Assembly (NCBI RefSeq): GCF_000024945.1
Contig: NC_013520.1
Span: 1,140,501 to 1,204,500 of the forward strand
Length of the DNA: 64,000 nt
Direction of reading: 5' to 3'
Source of the DNA: Veillonella parvula DSM 2008
GTDB taxonomy: Bacteria; Bacillota; Negativicutes; Veillonellales; Veillonellaceae
Below are positions 20,560-53,422 of the stretch, one piece after another. The notes under the pieces are model-generated. The model was given only the letters and a program-made list of their open reading frames with translations. It ran no database searches and was not told the origin of the DNA. Numbering within the stretch: the first letter of the stretch is position 1; each line of letters opens with the position of its first letter. The position numbers and the translations under genes were made by a program.

Positions 20560-23500
20560 TTAGTCGTGATTCTTTTTGCGGTTTGTTAACAAACCAGGTC
20601 CAATTGTTTCAATGATGATAAACAACATTGGGATGATAAAGATACCAAACAATGTAGCTGTTGTCATCCCTGCTACTACAGTAATACCCATAGAAGTACG
20701 TGCACCAGAACCAGCACCACTAGATACTGCCAATGGTAATACACCAAGGATAAATGCAAAGGATGTCATCAAAATTGGACGCAAACGAATTTTTGCAGCT
20801 TCGATAGCAGCATCAACAACATTCATACCACGCTCGTCAACGCGAATCTTAGCATATTCGATAATCAGAATCGCATTTTTTGCAGCCAAGCCAACCAAGG
20901 TTAAAAGACCAATTTGCATATAAATATCATTTGCCAAAGAGTATCTGCCTGTGAAGTTCAATAAGAATGGTACTAAAGAAGCACCAATCATACCAGATGG
21001 TACGGAGAACAATACGGCAAATGGAACCTTCCAAGACTCATATAAGGCAGCCAAGATTAAGAATACAAAGACAAGGCCTAAACCTAGAATCAACATAGAT
21101 TGAGAACCGGCTTTTAACTCTTCACGAGATTGCCCTGCCCAATCATATGTATAACCAGCAGGTAATGTTTTAGCGGCGGCCTCTTTTAATGCATTGATAG
21201 CATCACCAGAGGAATATCCTCTAGCTTGAGAACCACCAATTTGTACGGCCATCGCATTATCAAAGCGAGTAATGCTAGATGGTGTACCTGTTTGTTCCTT
21301 TGTAATATAGTTAGAAACAGGAACCATTTGGCCATTGCTATTTCTAACAGCTAACATATTAAGCTGATCCGCATTTTGACGATATGCGTCTTCCGCTTGG
21401 ACTACAACCTTATAGTTTTTACCATAAGTAGTAAAGTCGTTAACTTGAATACTACCATAGAACCCTTGCAAAGTGGTAAAGATATCAGCTAATGCTACAC
21501 CATCTTGAGCCGCTTTTTCACGATTTACATTAAATTGTAATGTCGGCGTAGATGTATCAAAAGTAGTATAAATAGATTGAATTGCTGGGCTCTTACGAGC
21601 TTCCGCAATAAATTCATTAGTACGGTCAGCCATAACTTGTGGACTATCGCCAGCTTTGTTAATGATGTACATACTAAAACCACCAGTAGTACCAAGACCT
21701 GGAATAGATGGTGGATTCATAGCAATAACTGTTGCTTCAGGTACACCTTGAGCGGCAAAACCAAAGGTTTGACCAACCATTGCATTGATAGAAGTTGCAG
21801 CAGTAGTACGATATTTCCAGTCAGACATAGTAGCAAAAATTACACCAGCACTAGACTTTTGACCACCACCTAAAAGGTCAAAACCAGCGACAGTAAATAC
21901 TTCTTGGAATAATTGTTCATCCTTAGGTTTTTCAGGATCATTTTTTTCTTCCAAGAAAGATGCAATTTTTTCAAGTGTAGCCATAGTCCGTTCAGATGTA
22001 GCACCAGGTGGCTCATTAATAGCAATCATGTAGTAACCACTATCTTCAGCTGGTACGAAAGAAGTTGGTAAGAAGTGGAAAACTAAGGCTGTACCACCTG
22101 CAAATACTAGCAATGTAATAACAATTAAACTTAAACGATGGCTTAAACGCGCTAATTGGATGCCATACCAATTACTGAATCGTTCTAGAGCAGCATTAAA
22201 CTTATTTAATTGGCGATGTAACCAATCTTCACGATTTTTAGATATATGTGGTTTCAACATTGTAGAACATAATGCTGGTGTCAACACAAGTGCAATAATA
22301 GCTGAAATTACAACGGAAACAGCAATCGTTAATGCGAACTGTTTGTAAAGGATGCCTGTCATACCACCCATGAAAGCAACTGGTACAAATACAGCAGTCA
22401 ATACAAAGGCAATACCAATTACTGGTCCTTGCACATTTTCCATTGCTTTAATAGCCGCCTCTTTTGGAGGTAAACCATTATATTTTAACTCATATTCAAC
22501 AGCCTCTACCACTACGATAGCATCATCAACAACAAGTCCGATAGCCAAAACCATGGCAAAAAGCGTCAAAGTGTTAATAGAGAAATCTAATAAAACAAAA
22601 GCGCCAAATGTGCCAAGCAAAGATACTGGCACAGCAATCATAGGAATGATTGTGGATCGCCAAGATTGTAAGAAGACATATACTACAACTAAAACAAGGA
22701 GCAATGCCTCTACAAATGTATGCTCAACCTCATTAATAGATGCACTTACGAATTTAGTATTATCTACAACTACGTTATATTGCATATCTGGTGGGAAGGA
22801 TTTAGATTGCTCATCTAGAACCTTCTTAACATTAGCAATTGTTTCTAATGCATTAGCATCATTTTGTAGGGAAATAGCAAAACCGGCAACCTCTTTGTGA
22901 GCAGATTTTGCGATGAAGTCATATCCTTCAGCCCCAATTTGAATACGGGAGACATCTTTTAGATGTAATACCTTACCATTAATGCTTTTAATAGCAATAT
23001 TGCCAAATTGTTCAGGTGTTACGAGACGTCCATCAATTTTGATAGGATATTGAAAGGCTTGTTCACCATTTGTAGGGTTTTTCCCTACTGTACCTGCTGC
23101 GGCTTGTAAGTTTTGACCTTTTATAGCCGCCGTAACTTCAGAGATAGTAACACCAAGTTTTTGCATCTTCGCCGGATCTAGCCAAATGCGCATAGAATAA
23201 TCAGATCCGAACTCCTGTACAGAACCAACACCCTTAATGGATTTGATTGTATCCATCATATAATTGGTACCATAGTTCTTTAAGAATGTTGCATCATATG
23301 TGCCATTTGGTGAACTCAAAGAGAATATAAGTGCCATATCACCAGAAGATTTAGTAGTTGTAACACCTACAGCTTGTACCTCTGAAGGCAATTGTGCAAG
23401 TGCTGCTTGAACACGGTTTTGTGTATTAACCGCATCCATATCAGCATCTGTACCTTGATTGAACTGAACAGTCAACGAATAGCTACCGTTACTGGAACTA

Positions 23501-23742
23501 TTAGATGTCATATAGTCCATATCTTGTACGCCTACAATCTGCGTTTCAATAACACTGGCTACTGTATCATTAACAACTTGAGCAGTTGCACCAGTATAAG
23601 CAGTATTAACTTGAACTGTAGGTGGAGAAATTTGTGGATATCGAGCTACCGGAAGGTTCATCATAGAGATAAGCCCTACCAACGTAATAACAATGGCTAT
23701 TACGATGGCAAAGATAGGTCGATTAATAAAGAATTTCGACAC
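20560..23742 (-). CDS. acrB: RND efflux transporter, AcrB/MexB (HAE-1) type
   Basis: This is the inner-membrane proton/drug antiporter of a tripartite pump that exports drugs, bile salts or detergents through an outer-membrane channel. The 1060-residue length fits the HAE-1 family. It starts FFINRPIFAIVIAIVITLVGL (TM1), has two large periplasmic loops, and carries the proton-relay aspartate pair in GLVVDDAIVVVEAVEYEL near residue 407. The C-terminal TM11-TM12 block is intact. Start is GTG with GGAGG upstream. It follows acrA by 14 nt. No TolC-like channel or TetR-type repressor is adjacent. Substrate range cannot be read from sequence. Confidence 0.95.
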   Translation of the reverse strand: MSKFFINRPIFAIVIAIVITLVGLISMMNLPVARYPQISPPTVQVNTAYTGATAQVVNDTVASVIETQIVGVQDMDYMTSNSSSNGSYSLTVQFNQGTDADMDAVNTQNRVQAALAQLPSEVQAVGVTTTKSSGDMALIFSLSSPNGTYDATFLKNYGTNYMMDTIKSIKGVGSVQEFGSDYSMRIWLDPAKMQKLGVTISEVTAAIKGQNLQAAAGTVGKNPTNGEQAFQYPIKIDGRLVTPEQFGNIAIKSINGKVLHLKDVSRIQIGAEGYDFIAKSAHKEVAGFAISLQNDANALETIANVKKVLDEQSKSFPPDMQYNVVVDNTKFVSASINEVEHTFVEALLLVLVVVYVFLQSWRSTIIPMIAVPVSLLGTFGAFVLLDFSINTLTLFAMVLAIGLVVDDAIVVVEAVEYELKYNGLPPKEAAIKAMENVQGPVIGIAFVLTAVFVPVAFMGGMTGILYKQFALTIAVSVVISAIIALVLTPALCSTMLKPHISKNREDWLHRQLNKFNAALERFSNWYGIQLARLSHRLSLIVITLLVFAGGTALVFHFLPTSFVPAEDSGYYMIAINEPPGATSERTMATLEKIASFLEEKNDPEKPKDEQLFQEVFTVAGFDLLGGGQKSSAGVIFATMSDWKYRTTAATSINAMVGQTFGFAAQGVPEATVIAMNPPSIPGLGTTGGFSMYIINKAGDSPQVMADRTNEFIAEARKSPAIQSIYTTFDTSTPTLQFNVNREKAAQDGVALADIFTTLQGFYGSIQVNDFTTYGKNYKVVVQAEDAYRQNADQLNMLAVRNSNGQMVPVSNYITKEQTGTPSSITRFDNAMAVQIGGSQARGYSSGDAINALKEAAAKTLPAGYTYDWAGQSREELKAGSQSMLILGLGLVFVFLILAALYESWKVPFAVLFSVPSGMIGASLVPFLLNFTGRYSLANDIYMQIGLLTLVGLAAKNAILIIEYAKIRVDERGMNVVDAAIEAAKIRLRPILMTSFAFILGVLPLAVSSGAGSGARTSMGITVVAGMTTATLFGIFIIPMLFIIIETIGPGLLTNRKKNHD

Positions 23743-23756
23743 GATCTATCCTCCTT

Positions 23757-24884
23757 TTATTTTGTAGCTTTCAACTGTTCTTTAGTTAGTAGTTTGCCAT
23801 TTACTTTTACGCCATTTTTCACCTTAGTTAAGCCGTCAACGATGATTGTATCACCAGTAGCCAAACCAGATTTAATGATCGTTTCATTACCTTTAGTACC
23901 ACCAATCTCTACTGTCTTTTGTTCTACTACACCAGCTGCATTTACAACATAAACAAAGTTTTTGTCCATGATTTGTAAAATTGCACGACTTGGTACAAGG
24001 ATTGCATTTTTAATCTTTTCACCAGGAGAAACAACAGTAGCATACATATTAGGTAATAATAAATGATTAGGATTTGGGAAGGACGCTTTCAATACAAGCT
24101 TACCCGTAGATTGATCTAAACTCTTAGCCGCTTGCACGATAGAACCAAGTTCATTATATGTTTCGCCATCAGCAAGTTTTAATTGAATATTTGGACCATT
24201 AGAATCATCCGTTGTAGGATTCTTCATAAAATCAAGATATTCTTGCTCAGTCATACTAAACTCAACGAAGATTGGATCAATAGAATCGATTGTAACCAAT
24301 GTAGTAGAGCCAGCCTGAACATAAGTGCCTGTATCTACGTCATCCATGCGTAATGTACCAGAATATGGTGCATATACCATGGTATCCCCCATATTATCTT
24401 GAGCAATTTTCACGGATGCTTCATACGCTTCATAAGTAGCTTTAGCTTGCTCTGTAGCACTACGTTGCGTATCTACACGTTGTTGAGCAATCGCATCTTG
24501 TGATGCCAAAGTTTCATAACGTTGAAGATCTACTTCAGCATTTTTCAAGTTTGCATTAGCTTGAGCTGCTTGTGCTTCTGCATTAGCAAGACTCGCTTCA
24601 TATTGACGAGAATCAATTCGATATAATGGTTGTCCCGCTACTACTTGTTCCCCACCTTTTACAAACTTCTCAACAATATAACCACTTACACGAGCATGTA
24701 CAGCTACAGAGTTCTCCGCAACTACAGTGCCAGCAAATGTTTGATCAACTTGTGTATCACTTGCTGTAAGTTTATATGTATTAACATTAATCTCACCAGC
24801 TTGCTGTTGATTGTTGCCACACCCTGCAATCATCACAGCAGACATTACGAGAGCTGCTAACATACGGGAATAACGATACTTCAT
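23757..24884 (-). CDS. acrA: RND periplasmic adaptor (membrane fusion protein), lipoprotein
   Basis: The adaptor bridges the RND transporter and an outer-membrane channel. The 375-residue protein has a lipoprotein signal (hydrophobic segment ending in IAGC, Cys22). A biotinyl-lipoyl half follows (VSGYIVEKFVKGGEQVVAGQPLYRID in outline, about 66-92), then an alpha-helical hairpin (about 93-160), the second lipoyl half, a beta-barrel, and a membrane-proximal domain with PSRAILQIMDKNFVYVV. It is first in the acrA-acrB operon and has a good promoter at 24948-24976. A lipid anchor on the adaptor implies attachment to the outer face of the inner membrane. Confidence 0.93.
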   Translation of the reverse strand: MKYRYSRMLAALVMSAVMIAGCGNNQQQAGEINVNTYKLTASDTQVDQTFAGTVVAENSVAVHARVSGYIVEKFVKGGEQVVAGQPLYRIDSRQYEASLANAEAQAAQANANLKNAEVDLQRYETLASQDAIAQQRVDTQRSATEQAKATYEAYEASVKIAQDNMGDTMVYAPYSGTLRMDDVDTGTYVQAGSTTLVTIDSIDPIFVEFSMTEQEYLDFMKNPTTDDSNGPNIQLKLADGETYNELGSIVQAAKSLDQSTGKLVLKASFPNPNHLLLPNMYATVVSPGEKIKNAILVPSRAILQIMDKNFVYVVNAAGVVEQKTVEIGGTKGNETIIKSGLATGDTIIVDGLTKVKNGVKVNGKLLTKEQLKATK

Positions 24885-43010: not shown

Positions 43011-45458
43011 TCATATTGATACAACAAGATCATTATCCTTTGCATCTGCTTTAATAATTTTGCCTTCTTTTGCATCTCCTTTCAAAATAAGATCCGACAC
43101 TGGGTCCTCAATTAAACGTTGAATAGCACGTTTTAATGGTCGAGCCCCCATCGTAAAATCAGAGCCTTCCTTAACGAGTAATTTCATAGCCTCAGGAGAG
43201 ATTTCTAATTGTAAATCACGCTCTTCAAGACGTTTTGTAACATCACTCATCAAGATAGTTACAATTTCTTTTAAGTCCTCTTCAGTTAATGGATGGAATA
43301 CAATCATTTCATCGATGCGGTTTAAAAACTCAGGTCTAAAATAACGTTTTACCGCATCCATTACCGACTTCTTAGCCTCTTTAAAATCAATTCCTTTATT
43401 TTCATCAACATTAGAATCAGCCTTTTTAGCTGCTAAGAAACCAAGTTCTGGAGAGTTTTTATGTAAAGCTTTAGCACCTAAGTTACTTGTCATAATAATA
43501 ACTGTATTTCTGAAATCTACAGTTCTTCCTTGACTATCAGTAAGACGACCATCATCAAGAACTTGTAACAAAATATTAAAGAAATCTGCATGTGCCTTTT
43601 CCACTTCATCGAGGAGGATAACGCTATATGGTTTACGACGTACCGCATCTGTTAATTGGCCACCTTCTTCATAGCCTACATAACCTGGAGGGGCACCGAC
43701 TAAGCGAGACACAGTATGTTTTTCCATATATTCAGACATATCAAGTCGAATCATAGCAGATTCATCGCCGAACAAGGAGGATGCAAGCGCTCTTGCTAGC
43801 TCAGTTTTCCCTACACCAGTTGGCCCAAGGAACAAGAATGAACCAATAGGCCGTTTTGGGTCTTTTAATCCAGCCCTTGCACGGCGTACAGCTTTAGCTA
43901 CAGCAGTAACAGCCTCATCTTGACCTACTACGCGTTTATGAAGTTCTTCTTCTAAATGTAGTAAGGTTGCAGACTCTTCTTCTGCAATTTTAGCCACTGG
44001 AATGCCTGTCCATTGTGCTACTACAGCAGCTATGTCTTCCTCTGTTACTATTAACTTTTGATCACTTTTTTCTTTAGCGATAGATTTTTTATCACCAATT
44101 TCTTTTACTAGTGATTGTTCTTCATCGCGAAGCTTTGCAGCCTTTTCGAAATCTTGAGACGTAACAGCCGCTTCTTTTTCTTTCTTAACTGTATTGAGGC
44201 GATCCTCTAATGCTTTAACATCAGGTGCTGCAGAAAATACTTTCATACGAACCTTAGATGCAGCTTCATCGACTACATCGATAGCCTTATCAGGCAAGAA
44301 TCGATCTGTAATATATCGGCTAGATAAAGACACAGCTGCTGTTAATGCCTCATCTGTAATCTTAGCCTTATGGAAAGCTTCATACCGATCTCTTAAGCCC
44401 TTTAAAATTTCAAGAGCATCCTCTTCGTTAGGCTCTCCTACTTGAACGGGTTGAAAACGACGCTCTAAAGCAGCATCTTTTTCTATATGTTTCTTATATT
44501 CATCAAGTGTTGTGGCACCGATAACTTGGAATTCACCTCGTGCCAAAGCTGGCTTTAAGATATTAGCTGCATCCATAGCACCTTCAGTAGCACCTGCCCC
44601 AACCAATGTATGAATTTCATCTATAAAGATAATCATATCATCATGTTGTTGTACTTCATCGATAGCTTTTTTTAACCGTTCTTCAAATTCACCACGGTAC
44701 TTAGCACCCGCTAACATAGAGCCAATACTAAGAGATATAATGCGTTTATTACGCAAAATCTCCGGTACATTACCAGTCACAATGCGCTGTGCCAAGCCTT
44801 CGGCAATAGCTGTTTTACCTACACCTGGTTCACCGATAAGAACAGGATTATTTTTAGTTCTACGACTGAGAATTTGAATGACTCGTTGAATCTCCGTATC
44901 GCGACCAATAACGGGATCAATCTTACCTTGTTTAGCAGACTCATTAAGGTCAGTTGCAAAATCTGACAGCTCACCTAAATCATTATTGCTATTTATTCCC
45001 TCTTGACCACCATTATTGCTACCTTTATTCGAGCCAAGAATACTACGAATTGCTTCTACTACGTCATTACTACGTATATTCATAGCTCGTAAAATAGCAA
45101 CTGCAACACCGCTACCATCGCTAAGTAGGCCCAATAGAATATGCTCAGTACCAACGTAATTGTGATTCATGTGATTTGCTACTTGAATGGCAAGCTCAAG
45201 TACATGTTTAACGCGAGGTGTCATATATATTGATGTTGCCTTTTTATTACCACGTCCTACATGTTCTTCTACAGCTTCAAAAATATCTTCTGTAACAAGG
45301 CCAAGCTCTTCTAAAGCTTTAGCTGCTACACCATTTTTAACCTTTGTAAGGCCGATGAGTACGTGTTCAGTACCGACATAGTCATGTCCTAACTCCAAAG
45401 CAGCCTCTTGAGCTAACGAAAGAACACGCTGTGCATCGTCTGTAAACCGTTGCATCAT
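43011..45458 (-). CDS. clpC: AAA+ chaperone ClpC
   Basis: ClpC unfolds substrates, including arginine-phosphorylated proteins, for ClpP. The 815-residue protein has two N-terminal Clp repeats (about 3-145), AAA1 with [13 protein letters not shown] (about 208-220), a UVR-type middle domain ([18 protein letters not shown], about 425-442), AAA2 with [14 protein letters not shown] (about 545-558), and a C-terminal Clp_D2 domain. The start has two adjacent ATGs (45453-45458) behind AGGTGATATT. A 234-nt gap separates it from mcsB; I found no convincing promoter or GTCAAA repeat in that gap, only a small AATGGT/ACCATT hairpin. Confidence 0.97.
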
Positions 45459-45692
45459 AATATCACCTCATCTATCTATGTAAATTGTAATTATTTCTTT
45501 TCAAATATATGTAAACAATGGTGAAATAACCATTGGAATATCAAAAATATTATTAAACTCTATTAATCTATTATGCTATCTAGTATTAATATTTACTATT
45601 TTTTACAAATCTCTTAACAGTAAACTAAGAAAATTATATAAATCAATCTATACAAAATAAATAATCATGCATTAATTATTTATGTACTTATA

Positions 45693-46754
45693 TTAATTTG
45701 AAATTTTTTGACGTATCACCTTTGCACGATAGCTGTCGCGATCGGTATCTGTCAAATTTTCACTACCTAAATATTTAGAGAGGAAGTTTGGTCTAGTTAT
45801 AGCAACAAGCTCATTAAAAGTATCTTTACCCCAGAATGGTAATATTTCTAAATCTACACCTAATTGAATATCACTAAGCTTACTAAGTGCCTCTTTACCG
45901 CTTACACGGCGTGCATATTGTAAAACTCCATAGGATCGCCAAAGTATATCTTCCAAACCTTCTTTATCATTGTGTAATAAAGATTGCCGAGACTTTCGTT
46001 CTTCTGCAATAATTCCTTCTACGATTTTAATCAATTGCTCAATAGTTGCTTCTTCACTAATACCCATCGTTCGTTGATTAGAAATCTGGTAAATACAACC
46101 TAAAGCTTCGGAACCTTCCCCATACAACCCTCGTACAGAGTAACCTAATTGTATTATGTTACGAATGAGTCTCGTAATACGACCAGATAACGTCAATGCG
46201 GGTAAGTGTAACATAACAGAGGCCCGTAAACCTGTACCCACATTAGTGGGGCAAGCAGTTAAATAACCAAATCGCTCATCAAAGGCATAAGGGTATTTTG
46301 CTTCGATAGCTTTATCAATTTGAACTGCATGATTATAAGCTTGTTGCAATTTAAGTCCTGGAGCCATAGATTGAATACGTAAATGATCTTCTTCATTTAC
46401 CATAATTGCGATAGAAGCATCATCAGATACGATCAAATTACGATACAGTAATTTTTCCTCTAAAGCAGGACTCATTAAATGTTTTTCAACTAAGACAGCA
46501 CGTTCACGTTGACTTAATTGCTCAAGGCTAATATTTGTATATTGATGCTCATCAGCCTTTTTTAATATTGGCAATAGGCCTCGAGAGATTGTATTCACTT
46601 TTTCTAAGGAAACTGTATCTTCACGATTCGTAAACAATATATCATCAAAATTTCTCGCCAATCGTATACGACTTGAAATTACAATGTGGTCAGTCGCCTC
46701 TGTATCCTGACACAGCCACTGACTTAGCGGAGAGTCCAATATAGTATCTAACAT
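45693..46754 (-). CDS. mcsB: Protein-arginine kinase McsB
   Basis: McsB phosphorylates arginines on proteins such as CtsR, marking them for ClpCP. The 353-residue protein is a phosphagen-kinase homologue: VISSRIRLARNFDDILF (about 25-41), the ATP-grip region with RASVMLHLPALTLSGRI (about 182-198), and the C-terminal GEGSEALGCIYQISNQRTMG (about 214-233). Start ATG has GGAGG 5 nt upstream. It is 9 nt from mcsA. Confidence 0.96.
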   Translation of the reverse strand: MLDTILDSPLSQWLCQDTEATDHIVISSRIRLARNFDDILFTNREDTVSLEKVNTISRGLLPILKKADEHQYTNISLEQLSQRERAVLVEKHLMSPALEEKLLYRNLIVSDDASIAIMVNEEDHLRIQSMAPGLKLQQAYNHAVQIDKAIEAKYPYAFDERFGYLTACPTNVGTGLRASVMLHLPALTLSGRITRLIRNIIQLGYSVRGLYGEGSEALGCIYQISNQRTMGISEEATIEQLIKIVEGIIAEERKSRQSLLHNDKEGLEDILWRSYGVLQYARRVSGKEALSKLSDIQLGVDLEILPFWGKDTFNELVAITRPNFLSKYLGSENLTDTDRDSYRAKVIRQKISN

Positions 46755-46763
46755 AAGAACCTC

Positions 46764-47303
46764 CTATTCGTTATCACCATCGATGATAACTTCTAGATTT
46801 TTAATTTTATCTCTCAAAATTGCGGCTTCTTCAAAGTTTTCAGCTTGAATAGCTGTATCTAATTGACGGCGCAATTGCTTTACTTCATACTTTGCTTTAA
46901 ATACATTAGTACCACGACTAGGTATAGCCCCTTCATACTCAGAACTACCTTGTATTCGTTCTAATAATGGATTTATTTCACTATTAAAAGTCTCATAACA
47001 TTGACCACAGCCAAACTTACCTACCCGATTGAATTCATCATAAGTAATACCACACTGAGGGCATCTCTTAGATTGATGAGCTTTTAATAAGTTATCTGGA
47101 TAGACCATATTCTTAAAAAAATCATTAGTAAAAAAGTTATTATCCCACATATCATTCATAAAAGAACTATAAGGAGATAATTTTCCAGCTTGTTGTAACT
47201 CGGTGGCACAAGCACTGCAAAGATGTTGCTCAGTCTTTTGATTATTTATGATATTAGTCATATGGATAGTAGCTTCATTTTTATGGCAATGATCACATAA
47301 CAC
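46764..47303 (-). CDS. mcsA: McsA, activator of McsB
   Basis: McsA binds zinc and activates the McsB arginine kinase. The 179-residue protein has CxxC pairs at the N-terminus (CDHC about 3-6; CSAC about 29-32), a second pair set (CPQC about 81-84; CGQC about 98-101) and a C-terminal UVR motif (LDTAIQAENFEEAAILRDKIKNL in outline, about 148-170). It sits between ctsR and mcsB with gaps of 6 and 9 nt. Confidence 0.95.
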   Translation of the reverse strand: MLCDHCHKNEATIHMTNIINNQKTEQHLCSACATELQQAGKLSPYSSFMNDMWDNNFFTNDFFKNMVYPDNLLKAHQSKRCPQCGITYDEFNRVGKFGCGQCYETFNSEINPLLERIQGSSEYEGAIPSRGTNVFKAKYEVKQLRRQLDTAIQAENFEEAAILRDKIKNLEVIIDGDNE

Positions 47304-47309
47304 AAATCA

Positions 47310-47789
47310 TCACTCCTTCCGTAAAGTGTCCACCATTGATGCATATAATTGACGAACAGCATCATTACGTTCTTCTACGTCTACATTTTCAATTAATGTA
47401 GCAAAAGAATTATGCATCAATTGAGCTTCACGACGGGTAATCTTTTCAGATTGTAATAATTGAAATAATGATTGATCTACATCTCGCATATCAATTAATC
47501 GTTCTACCGTATTTGGACCTTCATAAATCCGATAAGTTGTAACAGCAGGTAAAGAATCTGAGCTTTCTGGGTTAATTTTTTTGATTCGAATATATCCACC
47601 CAAGCCACGTCTTGATTCAACATCAAAACCGCGCTCATTAGAAAAACGCGTACTTAACACGTAACTAATTTGGGATGGCGCACAATCTAATTCATCAGCC
47701 AATTCATTACGCTTTAAAATTAGCTTTTCTTGTTCTTCACGCATACGGTCTAATATAAATTTTTCTATTTTATCAGCTATCATACTCAT
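47310..47789 (-). CDS. ctsR: Heat-shock transcriptional repressor CtsR
   Basis: CtsR represses clp and its own operon and is inactivated by heat. The 159-residue protein has the N-terminal winged helix (IADKIEKFILDRM; ANELADELDCAPSQISYVLSTRF-like run, with ERGFDVESRRGLGGYIRI as the wing, about 40-70) and a C-terminal dimer/McsB-target domain. Start is the ATG at 47787-47789, 6 nt after AAAGGGGTG. Its promoter region at 47853-47881 carries two tandem GTCAAA heptads between the -35 and -10 boxes, consistent with autoregulation. Confidence 0.96.
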   Translation of the reverse strand: MSMIADKIEKFILDRMREEQEKLILKRNELADELDCAPSQISYVLSTRFSNERGFDVESRRGLGGYIRIKKINPESSDSLPAVTTYRIYEGPNTVERLIDMRDVDQSLFQLLQSEKITRREAQLMHNSFATLIENVDVEERNDAVRQLYASMVDTLRKE

Positions 47790-47852
47790 AAAAAACACCC
47801 CTTTAAAGTTTATTTACTATAGTTTTGACTATTTGTTCTTTATCATAACTCT

Positions 47853-47881
47853 ATTATATTTGACTTTTTGACCTTAGTCAA
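47853..47881 (-). promoter_or_regulatory. ctsR promoter with tandem CtsR-like heptads in the spacer
   Basis: TTGACT (47876-47881), a 17-nt spacer and TATAAT (47853-47858) lie on the minus strand. The spacer is almost entirely GGTCAAA (47867-47873), one base, then AGTCAAA (47859-47865). The CtsR operator known from Bacillus is a direct repeat of GGTCAAA with a 3-nt gap; here the gap is 1 nt, so this may be a variant operator. The strong promoter match and the position make regulation likely. Confidence 0.7.
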
Positions 47882-47884
47882 CAT

Positions 47885-47920
47885 AAAAGTCAAATTTCAT
47901 AAAAATAACGTTTGACTTTT
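47885..47920. repeat. Inverted repeat AAAAGTCAAA / TTTGACTTTT in divergent region
   Basis: Two perfect 10-bp arms (47885-47894 and 47911-47920) with a 16-nt spacer lie between ctsR and the plus-strand gene. Each arm contains the GTCAAA core seen in the ctsR spacer; another TAGTCAAAA copy lies at about 47824-47832. Confidence 0.55.
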
Positions 47921-47937
47921 AATGTATTCTCATATAA

Positions 47938-47967
47938 TTGGACTTAATGCTTAAATCTATGTATAAT
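47938..47967 (+). promoter_or_regulatory. Candidate promoter for the plus-strand SpeD-like gene
   Basis: TTGGAC, an 18-nt spacer and TATAAT lie on the plus strand, 35 nt before the start codon. An alternative is TTGACT (47912-47917) with TATAAT (47933-47938) at a short 15-nt spacing, where the -35 box is part of the inverted repeat. Confidence 0.45.
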
Positions 47968-48002: not shown

Positions 48003-48509
48003 ATGGCAGAAGCATTAGGACAAGAACTGTTAATTGATTTATATTCCTGCGATGAAGACGCAATTTCATCCGCTACAGCTGTACAGGAAAGTGTAGCAAC
48101 CGCATTTGACTTAGCTGAACTTGATGTAGATGAAATCAGTTGTCAGGTTATGGACGAGGAAATCGCCCTCCTTTCTGTCGCACCAGGTTTTCACTTTACA
48201 TTGCACACATATCCTGCACTTGGTTATGTAGCAGTTGATTTGTATTCCTTCGAGCAAACATTACCGCTTACGTTAATTATGAAAGCCTTACGTAAATCTT
48301 TTAGAGCTGAAAAAGTAAAGGCAACAAGTGTGCAACGTGGCGACTTTGGTAACGAACGTGATATGAAGCCACGTCGCAAAACTAAGATTACTACACTTGG
48401 TCGTGTTTCTCGTACACGTATCCAACTCAAACAAACAGGAGGCAAGTTGAAAAAACAAAGTGCTAAGGTTATCAAAACATTAGCTAAAAAGAGTGGCCTA
48501 AAAAAATAA
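48003..48509 (+). CDS. Degenerate AdoMet decarboxylase-like (SpeD-like) protein with basic tail
   Basis: Residues 5-113 follow the prokaryotic S-adenosylmethionine decarboxylase pattern: LGQELLIDLYSCDED (about 5-19), then FHFTLHTYPALGYVAVDLYS (63-82), then KATSVQRGDFG (106-116). In active enzymes the middle block reads ESHxxIHTxPE...AVDxxTCG: the serine becomes the pyruvoyl group and the cysteine aids catalysis. Here those positions are Gly62, Phe63 and Phe83; only His68 remains. Self-cleavage and pyruvoyl catalysis therefore look impossible. Residues 120-168 hold 18 Lys/Arg and essentially no acidic residue after Asp120, suggesting nucleic-acid binding. Start ATG 48003 has AAGGAAGGTG 5 nt upstream. 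It is the only plus-strand gene and is divergent from ctsR. Homology is read by eye, so the family call is moderately sure; function is unknown. Confidence 0.7.
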   Translation: MAEALGQELLIDLYSCDEDAISSATAVQESVATAFDLAELDVDEISCQVMDEEIALLSVAPGFHFTLHTYPALGYVAVDLYSFEQTLPLTLIMKALRKSFRAEKVKATSVQRGDFGNERDMKPRRKTKITTLGRVSRTRIQLKQTGGKLKKQSAKVIKTLAKKSGLKK

Positions 48510-48526
48510 CATAAAATGAAAATGCA

Positions 48527-48556
48527 AAAAAGCTAGAGGATTTCCTCTAGCTTTTT
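48527..48556. terminator. Bidirectional terminator between convergent genes
   Basis: AAAAAGCTAGAGG and CCTCTAGCTTTTT form a 13-bp perfect stem with a 4-nt loop; T-runs follow on both strands. It serves the plus-strand gene ending at 48509 and the minus-strand HAD gene ending at 48590. Confidence 0.9.
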
Positions 48557-52012: not shown

Positions 52013-53422
52013 TTAACCGATAGAACCTTCTAATTCAAGATTGATTAGATTGTTCATTTCTACTGCATATTCAAGTGGCAATTCTTTAGAGATTGGCTCT
52101 ACAAAGCCACGAACGAGCATCGCACGAGCTTCTTCTTCACTAATACCACGAGTCATAAGATAGAAAATTGCCTCGTCGGAAATACGACCGATTTTAGCTT
52201 CATGACCTAAATCCACATTGTCATTTTCTACGATAATAGCTGGGATTGTATCAGATTGAGACTCAGCATCAAGCATCAAGGATTCACAAGAAACGGTTGC
52301 TTTGGAATGCTCAGCTTTAGGACCAATCTTCAAAAGGCCACGATAAATTGCAGCGCCACCGGATTTAGAAATGGATTTAGAGTTTACATTACTTGTTGTA
52401 TATGGTGCATTATGTACCACTTTACAACCTGTATCGAGGAATTGTCCTTCACCAGCGAATGTTACACCTGTAAATTCAGCATGTGCACCTTCACCGTTGA
52501 GAATACTCATTGGGTACAAACAAGAAACTTTGGAGCCAAAGGAACCAGATACCCACTCAATTGTACCATTTTTACCTACTACACAACGTTTTGTGTTAAG
52601 GTTGTACATGTTTTTAGACCAGTTTTCAATTGTAGAATAACGCAATGTAGCATTGTCTTTAACGAACAGTTCAACAGCGCCTGCATGAAGGTTAGACACA
52701 TCATACTTAGGAGCAGAACAACCTTCGATAAAGTGCAATTTAGCCCCTTCTTCTACGATAATCATCGTATGTTCGAACTGACCAGCACCTGGTGCATTCA
52801 AACGGAAGTAAGATTGCAATGGAATCTCTACTTGTACACCTGCAGGAACGTATACGAAGGAACCACCAGACCAAACGGCACCGTGAAGAGCAGCCCATTT
52901 ATGGTCTGTAGGTGGAATTAATGTCATCCAGTATTTTTTTACGATTTCTTCATGTTCATGTAATGCTGTTTCGATATCAGTATAGATAACACCTTGCTTA
53001 ACAAGATCTTCTTGAATACTGTGGTAAACAACTTCAGAATCATATTGAGCACCAACACCAGCTAGAGATGTTTTTTCCGCTTCTGGAATACCTAAGCGGT
53101 CAAAAGTACTTTTAATTTCTTCTGGAACTTCATCCCAGTTTTCTTTCATATCTACTTTAGGCTTAACATATGTATGAATATTTGCCATATCTAAGCCCGA
53201 GATATCAGGAATCCAATTCGGAATGCCCATGCGATTATAGATTTCCAAAGACTTTAAACGGAAATCGAGCATCCATTCTGGTTCATTTTTATTAGACCAA
53301 ATCTCACGGATAATATCTTCTGTTAAACCGGCATCAGAGATATAAGAATATTCAAATTCGTTCTTTATATCATAGACGCCACGGTCCATATCCGCGACTT
53401 GGGTTTTCTTTCTTTCTTCCAT
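52013..53422 (-). CDS. sufB: Fe-S assembly scaffold subunit SufB
   Basis: SufB is the main scaffold on which the nascent cluster is built. The 469-residue protein has the typical N-terminus, then WAALHGAVWSGGSFVYVPAGV (about 178-198), LHFIEGCSAP (about 229-238), the C-terminal core HNAPYTTSNVNSKSISKSGG (about 338-357), and the end AIFYLMTRGISEEEARAMLV (about 421-440). It is 8 nt from sufC. Confidence 0.96.
   Translation of the reverse strand: MEERKKTQVADMDRGVYDIKNEFEYSYISDAGLTEDIIREIWSNKNEPEWMLDFRLKSLEIYNRMGIPNWIPDISGLDMANIHTYVKPKVDMKENWDEVPEEIKSTFDRLGIPEAEKTSLAGVGAQYDSEVVYHSIQEDLVKQGVIYTDIETALHEHEEIVKKYWMTLIPPTDHKWAALHGAVWSGGSFVYVPAGVQVEIPLQSYFRLNAPGAGQFEHTMIIVEEGAKLHFIEGCSAPKYDVSNLHAGAVELFVKDNATLRYSTIENWSKNMYNLNTKRCVVGKNGTIEWVSGSFGSKVSCLYPMSILNGEGAHAEFTGVTFAGEGQFLDTGCKVVHNAPYTTSNVNSKSISKSGGAAIYRGLLKIGPKAEHSKATVSCESLMLDAESQSDTIPAIIVENDNVDLGHEAKIGRISDEAIFYLMTRGISEEEARAMLVRGFVEPISKELPLEYAVEMNNLINLELEGSIG

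Follow-up and report, generated by a model that had tools for sequence, protein, structure and literature searches.

A tailed SpeD-like gene divergent from ctsR in Veillonella parvula

The DNA analysed here, hereafter the window, is a stretch of 64,000 nucleotides from the genome of Veillonella parvula DSM 2008 (contig NC_013520.1). It contains a gene for a protein of 168 residues in which a core resembling S-adenosylmethionine (AdoMet) decarboxylase, SpeD, is followed by a strongly basic C-terminal tail (Table 1). In Veillonella this gene is divergent from the ctsR-mcsA-mcsB-clpC operon, and in the window it is preceded by a GGAAGG ribosome site. The initial annotation had described it as the only plus-strand gene in the window, and this holds because the three other plus-strand open reading frames of at least 150 amino acids (22352-22900, 23392-23952 and 52256-52921) are all antisense to larger minus-strand genes. 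No credible riboswitch or other RNA family was found upstream of the gene.

Table 1. Position of the tailed SpeD-like gene, its parts, its putative expression signals and its neighbours in the window
Feature	Position	Strand	Evidence
Tailed SpeD-like pseudoenzyme gene (predicted), 168 aa	48003..48509	+	Pfam AdoMet_dc, 64 bits
SpeD-fold core, residues 1-113	48003..48341	+	pLDDT ~97 over residues 11-110; match to PDB 1tlu
Gly62-Phe63, replacing the Glu62-Ser63 self-cleavage/pyruvoyl site	48186..48191	+	Alignments
His68, sole classical catalytic residue left	48204..48206	+	Alignments; present in 84/88 family members
Phe83, replacing the catalytic Cys83	48249..48251	+	Alignments; Phe in all Veillonellales sequences examined
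Basic C-terminal tail, residues 114-168, motif DFG..DMKP.+.K...TG.K, net charge +16	48342..48506	+
Predicted long cationic helix, residues 131-163	48393..48491	+	Model, pLDDT ~57-71
Promoter-like site TGGACT-17-TATAAT for the tailed gene	47939..47967	+	Consensus match only, 10/12
Bidirectional intrinsic-terminator-like hairpin, 13 pairs	48527..48556	.	
ctsR, divergent neighbour of the tailed gene	47310..47798	-
mcsA-mcsB-clpC, remainder of the ctsR operon	43011..47303	-

The core retains the decarboxylase fold and has lost most catalytic residues

Profile search and structure prediction, both proposed as checks in the initial annotation, returned the AdoMet decarboxylase fold. Residues 9-113 matched the Pfam family AdoMet_dc (PF02675) at 1.9e-17, with 64 bits against a gathering cut-off of 25; the sequence match to Thermotoga maritima SpeD was 4.7e-9, and the TIGR03330 score of 51.8 bits fell below the equivalog cut-off of 75.65. 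An AlphaFold model, for which window and locus sequences were the input, had as its best fold matches the T. maritima SpeD structures 1tlu, 1vr7 and 1tmi (E ~1e-9, rmsd 1.3-1.4 A, ~111 columns), with values of E 8e-10, TM 0.88 by target length and rmsd 1.4 A over 111 columns for PDB 1tlu, and Aquifex SpeD was also among the best PDB structure matches.

Alignment to T. maritima SpeD revealed the replacement of Glu62 by Gly, of Ser63 by Phe and of Cys83 by Phe, together with those of Ser55 by Ala and Phe49 by Met, while His68 is unchanged. This bears out the earlier reading that the Glu-Ser pair has become Gly62-Phe63 and the catalytic Cys Phe83 within a retained HTYP...AVD signature (HTYP at residues 68-71, AVD at residues 77-79). 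The accompanying statement that only His68 remains is correct for the classical catalytic residues, but other fold residues are conserved too, namely Asp12, Tyr14, Cys16, His64, Tyr75, Asp79 and Arg112. S63, H68 and C83 are needed for self-processing or catalysis in SpeD homologues (PMC10407285), and because two of these required residues, S63 and C83, are replaced in the window protein, formation of the pyruvoyl group is not expected; judging from its sequence, neither decarboxylase activity nor self-cleavage is expected. By alignment and model, then, the window protein has a SpeD fold without the residues for self-cleavage and decarboxylation, and profile, structure, alignment and tree together lend good support to its reading as a catalytically dead protein of the AdoMet decarboxylase fold.

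It had also been suggested that a polyamine- or AdoMet-binding fold is kept. The fold part of this suggestion stands, but the tailed protein has not kept Phe49, Ser55 and Glu72, three residues that never vary among the untailed SpeDs compared, so that binding of an AdoMet or polyamine ligand appears doubtful, pocket residues being judged here by their conservation among those SpeDs.

The tailed protein is distributed throughout the Negativicutes

The tailed gene was found in all 28 genomes of the family, and at the level of the order a PF02675 match was present in 61 of 61 genomes, nearly all with one short copy and one long. Each of the 14 Veillonella genomes has, alongside the tailed gene, a separate E. 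coli-type SpeD of ~260 residues; this second copy in the window genome belongs to class 1a and has an intact active site. With a tail-only profile, the tailed protein was detected in 187 of 189 Negativicutes genomes, each at least 98% complete, and the tail, which had initially been taken for a local addition, is instead class-wide. The only near-complete genomes lacking the tailed protein are two members of family f5 of the Acidaminococcales (G062 and G071). In both of them SpeE gives a match and the SpeD family none.

Outside the class, a sample of 58 genomes from other classes of the same phylum gave no credible tail match, and a pattern scan with the tail alignment, covering 84,980 species with one genome per species, returned 76 loci, all of them with Negativicutes-type names or from MAGs named 'Bacillota bacterium'. 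As far as these searches could detect, the tail seems confined to Negativicutes, whose common ancestor already possessed a conserved basic tail.

The active site decays while the tail is conserved

In a tree of 88 thinned tailed proteins and untailed SpeDs, the tailed proteins group as a single clade (SH-aLRT 99), within which the state changed at least 12 times at Ser63 and at least six times at Cys83, both counts being approximate, since the tree was a quick one and many of its inner branches are weak. The full Glu-Ser-His-Cys set is found in 10 of the 88 members, mostly Sporomusa relatives, and Ser63 is present in 21 (24%) and absent from 67. Conservation in the family amounts to 47% for Glu62 and 61% for Cys83, and to 100% for Arg112 and Pro123, 99% for Thr108, 91% for Asp120 and 90% for Gly146. 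Lineages differ in the state of the site: Glu-Ser-His-Cys is often retained in the Sporomusa-like families, Gly occupies the position of Ser63 in the Selenomonas and Acidaminococcus groups, and the Veillonellales have Phe at position 83 throughout and nearly any residue at position 63.

Three informative Veillonella pairs gave dN values for tail versus core of 0.036 versus 0.193, 0.058 versus 0.249 and 0.066 versus 0.263, that is, a tail evolving ~4-5 times slower than the core in those pairs, with a tail dN/dS of ~0.04-0.05. Among the eight Veillonella pairs compared, the closest also has a lower dN in the tail and four others show a small contrast, dS being saturated in several.

As judged from the alignments and the tree, repeated losses of the active site left the tail in place, and this tail is an ancient feature, shared across the class and better conserved than the SpeD core. 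Since the catalytic residues were lost many times and the tail is nearly unchanged, what the cell needs is probably the tail and not the chemistry. Some Sporomusa-type members have a complete site, and part of the family may still be enzymatic.

Charge, motif and predicted helix of the tail

The last 48 residues of the window protein contain 18 Lys/Arg and no Asp/Glu. The earlier count is thereby confirmed and is unmatched among the 39 neighbouring genes of the window, in which the maximum is 12 Lys/Arg per 48 residues (12,026 stretches) and none reaches 18. The core of the window protein has a pI of 4.3 and the tail one of 11.8, and with a very acidic core and a very basic tail the latter could fold back on the former. 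In most other lineages the pI of the core is near neutral, unlike that of the acidic window core. All 87 members measured have a basic tail, with a net charge of +4 to ~+20 and a pI above 10.5 in 93% of them, and the motif T.[IVL][KR]RG[DN]FG..DMKPK.K...RR.[RK]NTG.K is common to proteins with every active-site state. The conserved DMKP and Thr-Gly would point to a specific contact and not to charge alone.

A helix is predicted within the tail, at residues 131-163 of the Veillonella protein and residues 138-149 of one from Selenomonadales, with a moderate pLDDT of ~55-71. Lineage-averaged hydrophobicity of the tail has a helical periodicity beyond that of shuffles in six of seven lineage groups (p<0.05); the amphipathic signal is weak in Veillonellaceae (p 0.06-0.16), and in Sporomusales and Selenomonadales the C-terminal 18-mer, for example PLRRIRNTGAKVIRLLAR, has a hydrophobic moment of 0.68-0.74 (p 0.001-0.008). 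Searches of Pfam and of PDB sequences yielded no significant match of the tail to any known domain, nucleic-acid-binding ones included. A match to PDB chain PLZ2.3 at 0.0014 was rejected, as no single stretch passes. Binding of nucleic acid by the tail, as initially proposed, is possible, but the tail has no known nucleic-acid-binding domain and an amphipathic helix fits a membrane or a protein equally.

Proposed role of the tailed protein and alternative explanations

The explanation that we favour, and consider reasonably probable, is that of a non-catalytic scaffold derived from SpeD that docks on an anionic partner through its cationic amphipathic tail. The core would dimerise like other class-1 SpeDs, as its relatives suggest, and the dimer, itself inert, would serve as a scaffold that presents two tails. 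Each tail would comprise a linker (DFG..DMKP) leading into an amphipathic, cationic helix in which a Thr-Gly is almost invariant, and would dock on one specific negatively charged cellular partner. A structured RNA or the ribosome is our leading guess for this partner, offered tentatively; the inner face of the cytoplasmic membrane comes second, as a less likely candidate, and an acidic protein third, as one a little less likely again. In a wider form, to which we give slightly less than even credence, the tailed protein would be a class-defining, non-enzymatic protein of the diderm Firmicutes, a decarboxylase fold turned into a dimeric carrier of a cationic docking tail directed to RNA, the ribosome or the membrane, and, with strong selection on the tail alone, its active site would decay separately in many lineages.

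We regard as unlikely, although deserving attention, that the protein is a membrane-docked regulator, the amphipathic tail helix inserting in the cytoplasmic membrane and placing the dead core there, perhaps in the polyamine modification of peptidoglycan that is specific to the class. Such an insertion would fit the Sporomusales and Selenomonadales, in which the hydrophobic moment of the C-terminal 18-mer is very high, whereas the Veillonella tails are long, polar and weakly amphipathic, and the conservation of DMKP and Thr-Gly would speak for a contact of greater specificity. Negativicutes share a polyamine-modified peptidoglycan that is bound by OmpM (PMC10628300, PMC3035260), and the tailed gene is class-wide as well; this co-occurrence is, however, weak evidence, because the class shares many traits.

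Improbable, in our estimation, is a role as a partner of the CtsR heat-shock system, either as an adaptor or as a substrate of McsB/ClpC. It is suggested by an old linkage to ctsR-mcsA-mcsB-clpC, ctsR lying within six genes of the tailed gene in 36 of 128 loci, a lower bound given that many loci are short, and the linkage being found in Sporomusales relatives, Propionispira, Veillonella and family f4. In Megasphaera relatives the tailed gene directly follows what we take, from its sequence, to be a ClpB-like gene, and in several Megasphaera-like loci (L086, L070, L073, L085 and others) it lies between this gene and a co-directional gene of ~200 aa that presumably encodes an HD-domain-like protein; in Sporomusa relatives we recognise by sequence, as presumed neighbours, flavodiiron-like, FabK-like and RlmI genes and a downstream rubrerythrin. 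The Arg-rich tail could also be a target of an arginine kinase. Against such a role, the tailed protein is kept where the ctsR linkage is broken, in the Selenomonas group, the Acidaminococcales, a Dialister-like group and three Veillonellaceae genera, and no CtsR operator was found beyond chance upstream of the tailed gene, the best match having four mismatches to RGTCAAANANRGTCAAA (p ~0.3) and no lineage being convincing. CtsR is present in 189 of 189 Negativicutes genomes, so its co-occurrence with the tailed protein is uninformative. The linkage thus reads as ancestral gene order and as a weak hint of a stress role. The ctsR-SpeD intergenic region contains, at 47820-47920, several GTCAAA/TTTGAC repeats in both orientations, at spacings unlike those of the classical CtsR operator, and Veillonella CtsR may read a different repeat arrangement.

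We find it quite improbable that the tailed protein acts like a prozyme, that is, as a dead paralogue that pairs with an active SpeD and activates it, as in trypanosomes. Such activation has a direct precedent with a dead AdoMet decarboxylase paralogue (PMC5201418, PMC6221367), and the window genome also encodes the intact class-1a SpeD; but this candidate partner is of a class distant from the class-1b-like tailed protein, and the conserved part of the latter is its tail, a part that the prozyme is not described as having. The distribution of the spermidine genes also argues against it. E. coli-type SpeD is present in 135 of the 189 Negativicutes genomes and SpeE in 169, and all 20 SpeE-less genomes keep the tailed protein, which is their sole PF02675 protein. 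It is likewise the only PF02675 protein in the Selenomonas group, where SpeE is present and NspC was found above cut-off in 20 of 22 genomes (G301-G322), in several adjoining speE (e.g. G305:C1:2258067-2261347); spermidine is therefore probably made via carboxyspermidine in this group, which suggests a switch of the spermidine route inside the class. By gene content, the tailed protein is still present in genomes that lack AdoMet decarboxylation and spermidine synthase, and its retention across pathway losses and switches makes a function in spermidine synthesis, or in prozyme-like activation of SpeD, unlikely. An apparently broken speE in the window genome was rejected as an artefact of a masked N stretch. 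RNA-seq of V. parvula has reported an 18-fold lower level in coaggregates for one SpeD gene, Vpar_0438; from its gene number and 520-kb position it is probably the canonical SpeD.

Still a little less credible is a neofunctionalised pyruvoyl decarboxylase of ornithine or arginine, of the SpeDC or SpeDA type. The presence of two SpeD homologues per genome, or of one without SpeE, corresponds to the features by which such enzymes were found (PMC10407285), and Glu-Ser-His-Cys is intact in some Sporomusa-type members, but these enzymes need Ser63, His68 and Cys83 (PMC10407285), two of which are Phe in the window protein, and most of the family has lost Ser63. Finally, a decaying pseudogene or chance open reading frame, to which the missing catalytic residues might point, is refuted by the conservation data, that is, by presence in 187 of 189 genomes, open frames and a dN/dS far below 1, and the gene comes with a promoter-like site and a terminator of its own.

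Comparison with known systems

The closest known proteins are the class 1b SpeDs (T. maritima TM0655, PDB 1tlu/1tmi; B. subtilis type; TIGR03330, PF02675), with which the tailed protein shares its fold, ~22% identity in the core, His68, the HT(Y/W)P and A.D motifs and the Arg112-Gly113 strand end. Unlike them, the window protein lacks Glu62, Ser63 and Cys83 and scores below the TIGR03330 cut-off, and its conserved basic tail is absent from the untailed SpeDs compared.

Dead AdoMet decarboxylase paralogues and degraded SpeD domains are already known. The trypanosome prozyme (PMC5201418), likewise a dead paralogue in a cell with an active enzyme, remains the nearest precedent for the former, but the tailed protein is prokaryotic, is kept without an active enzyme and without SpeE, and has its tail as the conserved part. 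SpeDA and SpeDC (PMC10407285) are also SpeD homologues outside spermidine synthesis, occurring as a second SpeD copy or as a SpeD without SpeE; they keep the pyruvoyl machinery, whereas the window protein has only H68 of S63, H68 and C83. That paper makes no mention of Veillonella, Negativicutes or Firmicutes. SpeD-fold domains without self-cleavage also occur in the SpeD-SpeDC fusions of Victivallis and Desulfobacter and in the C-terminal half of eukaryotic AdoMet decarboxylase, but those degraded domains are fused to an active one and the tailed protein is free-standing. In the literature searched, we found no free-standing, class-wide, tail-conserved dead SpeD from bacteria.

Implications for annotation and for enzyme evolution

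Six tailed proteins in which Ser63 is replaced by Gly (L109, L110, L116, L106, L105 and L119) score above the NCBI TIGR03330 equivalog cut-off, and tailed proteins lacking Ser63 would therefore be annotated as active AdoMet decarboxylase. A nearly universal, single-copy and apparently class-restricted protein receives the automatic name 'adenosylmethionine decarboxylase', and in reconstructions of polyamine pathways for the Negativicutes, which are common in the mouth, gut and rumen, a dead protein would then pass for the enzyme. Within one lineage, the family presents an intact site, intermediates and full loss beside a conserved added part, a series that makes the fate of an enzyme after its recruitment to another job directly testable.
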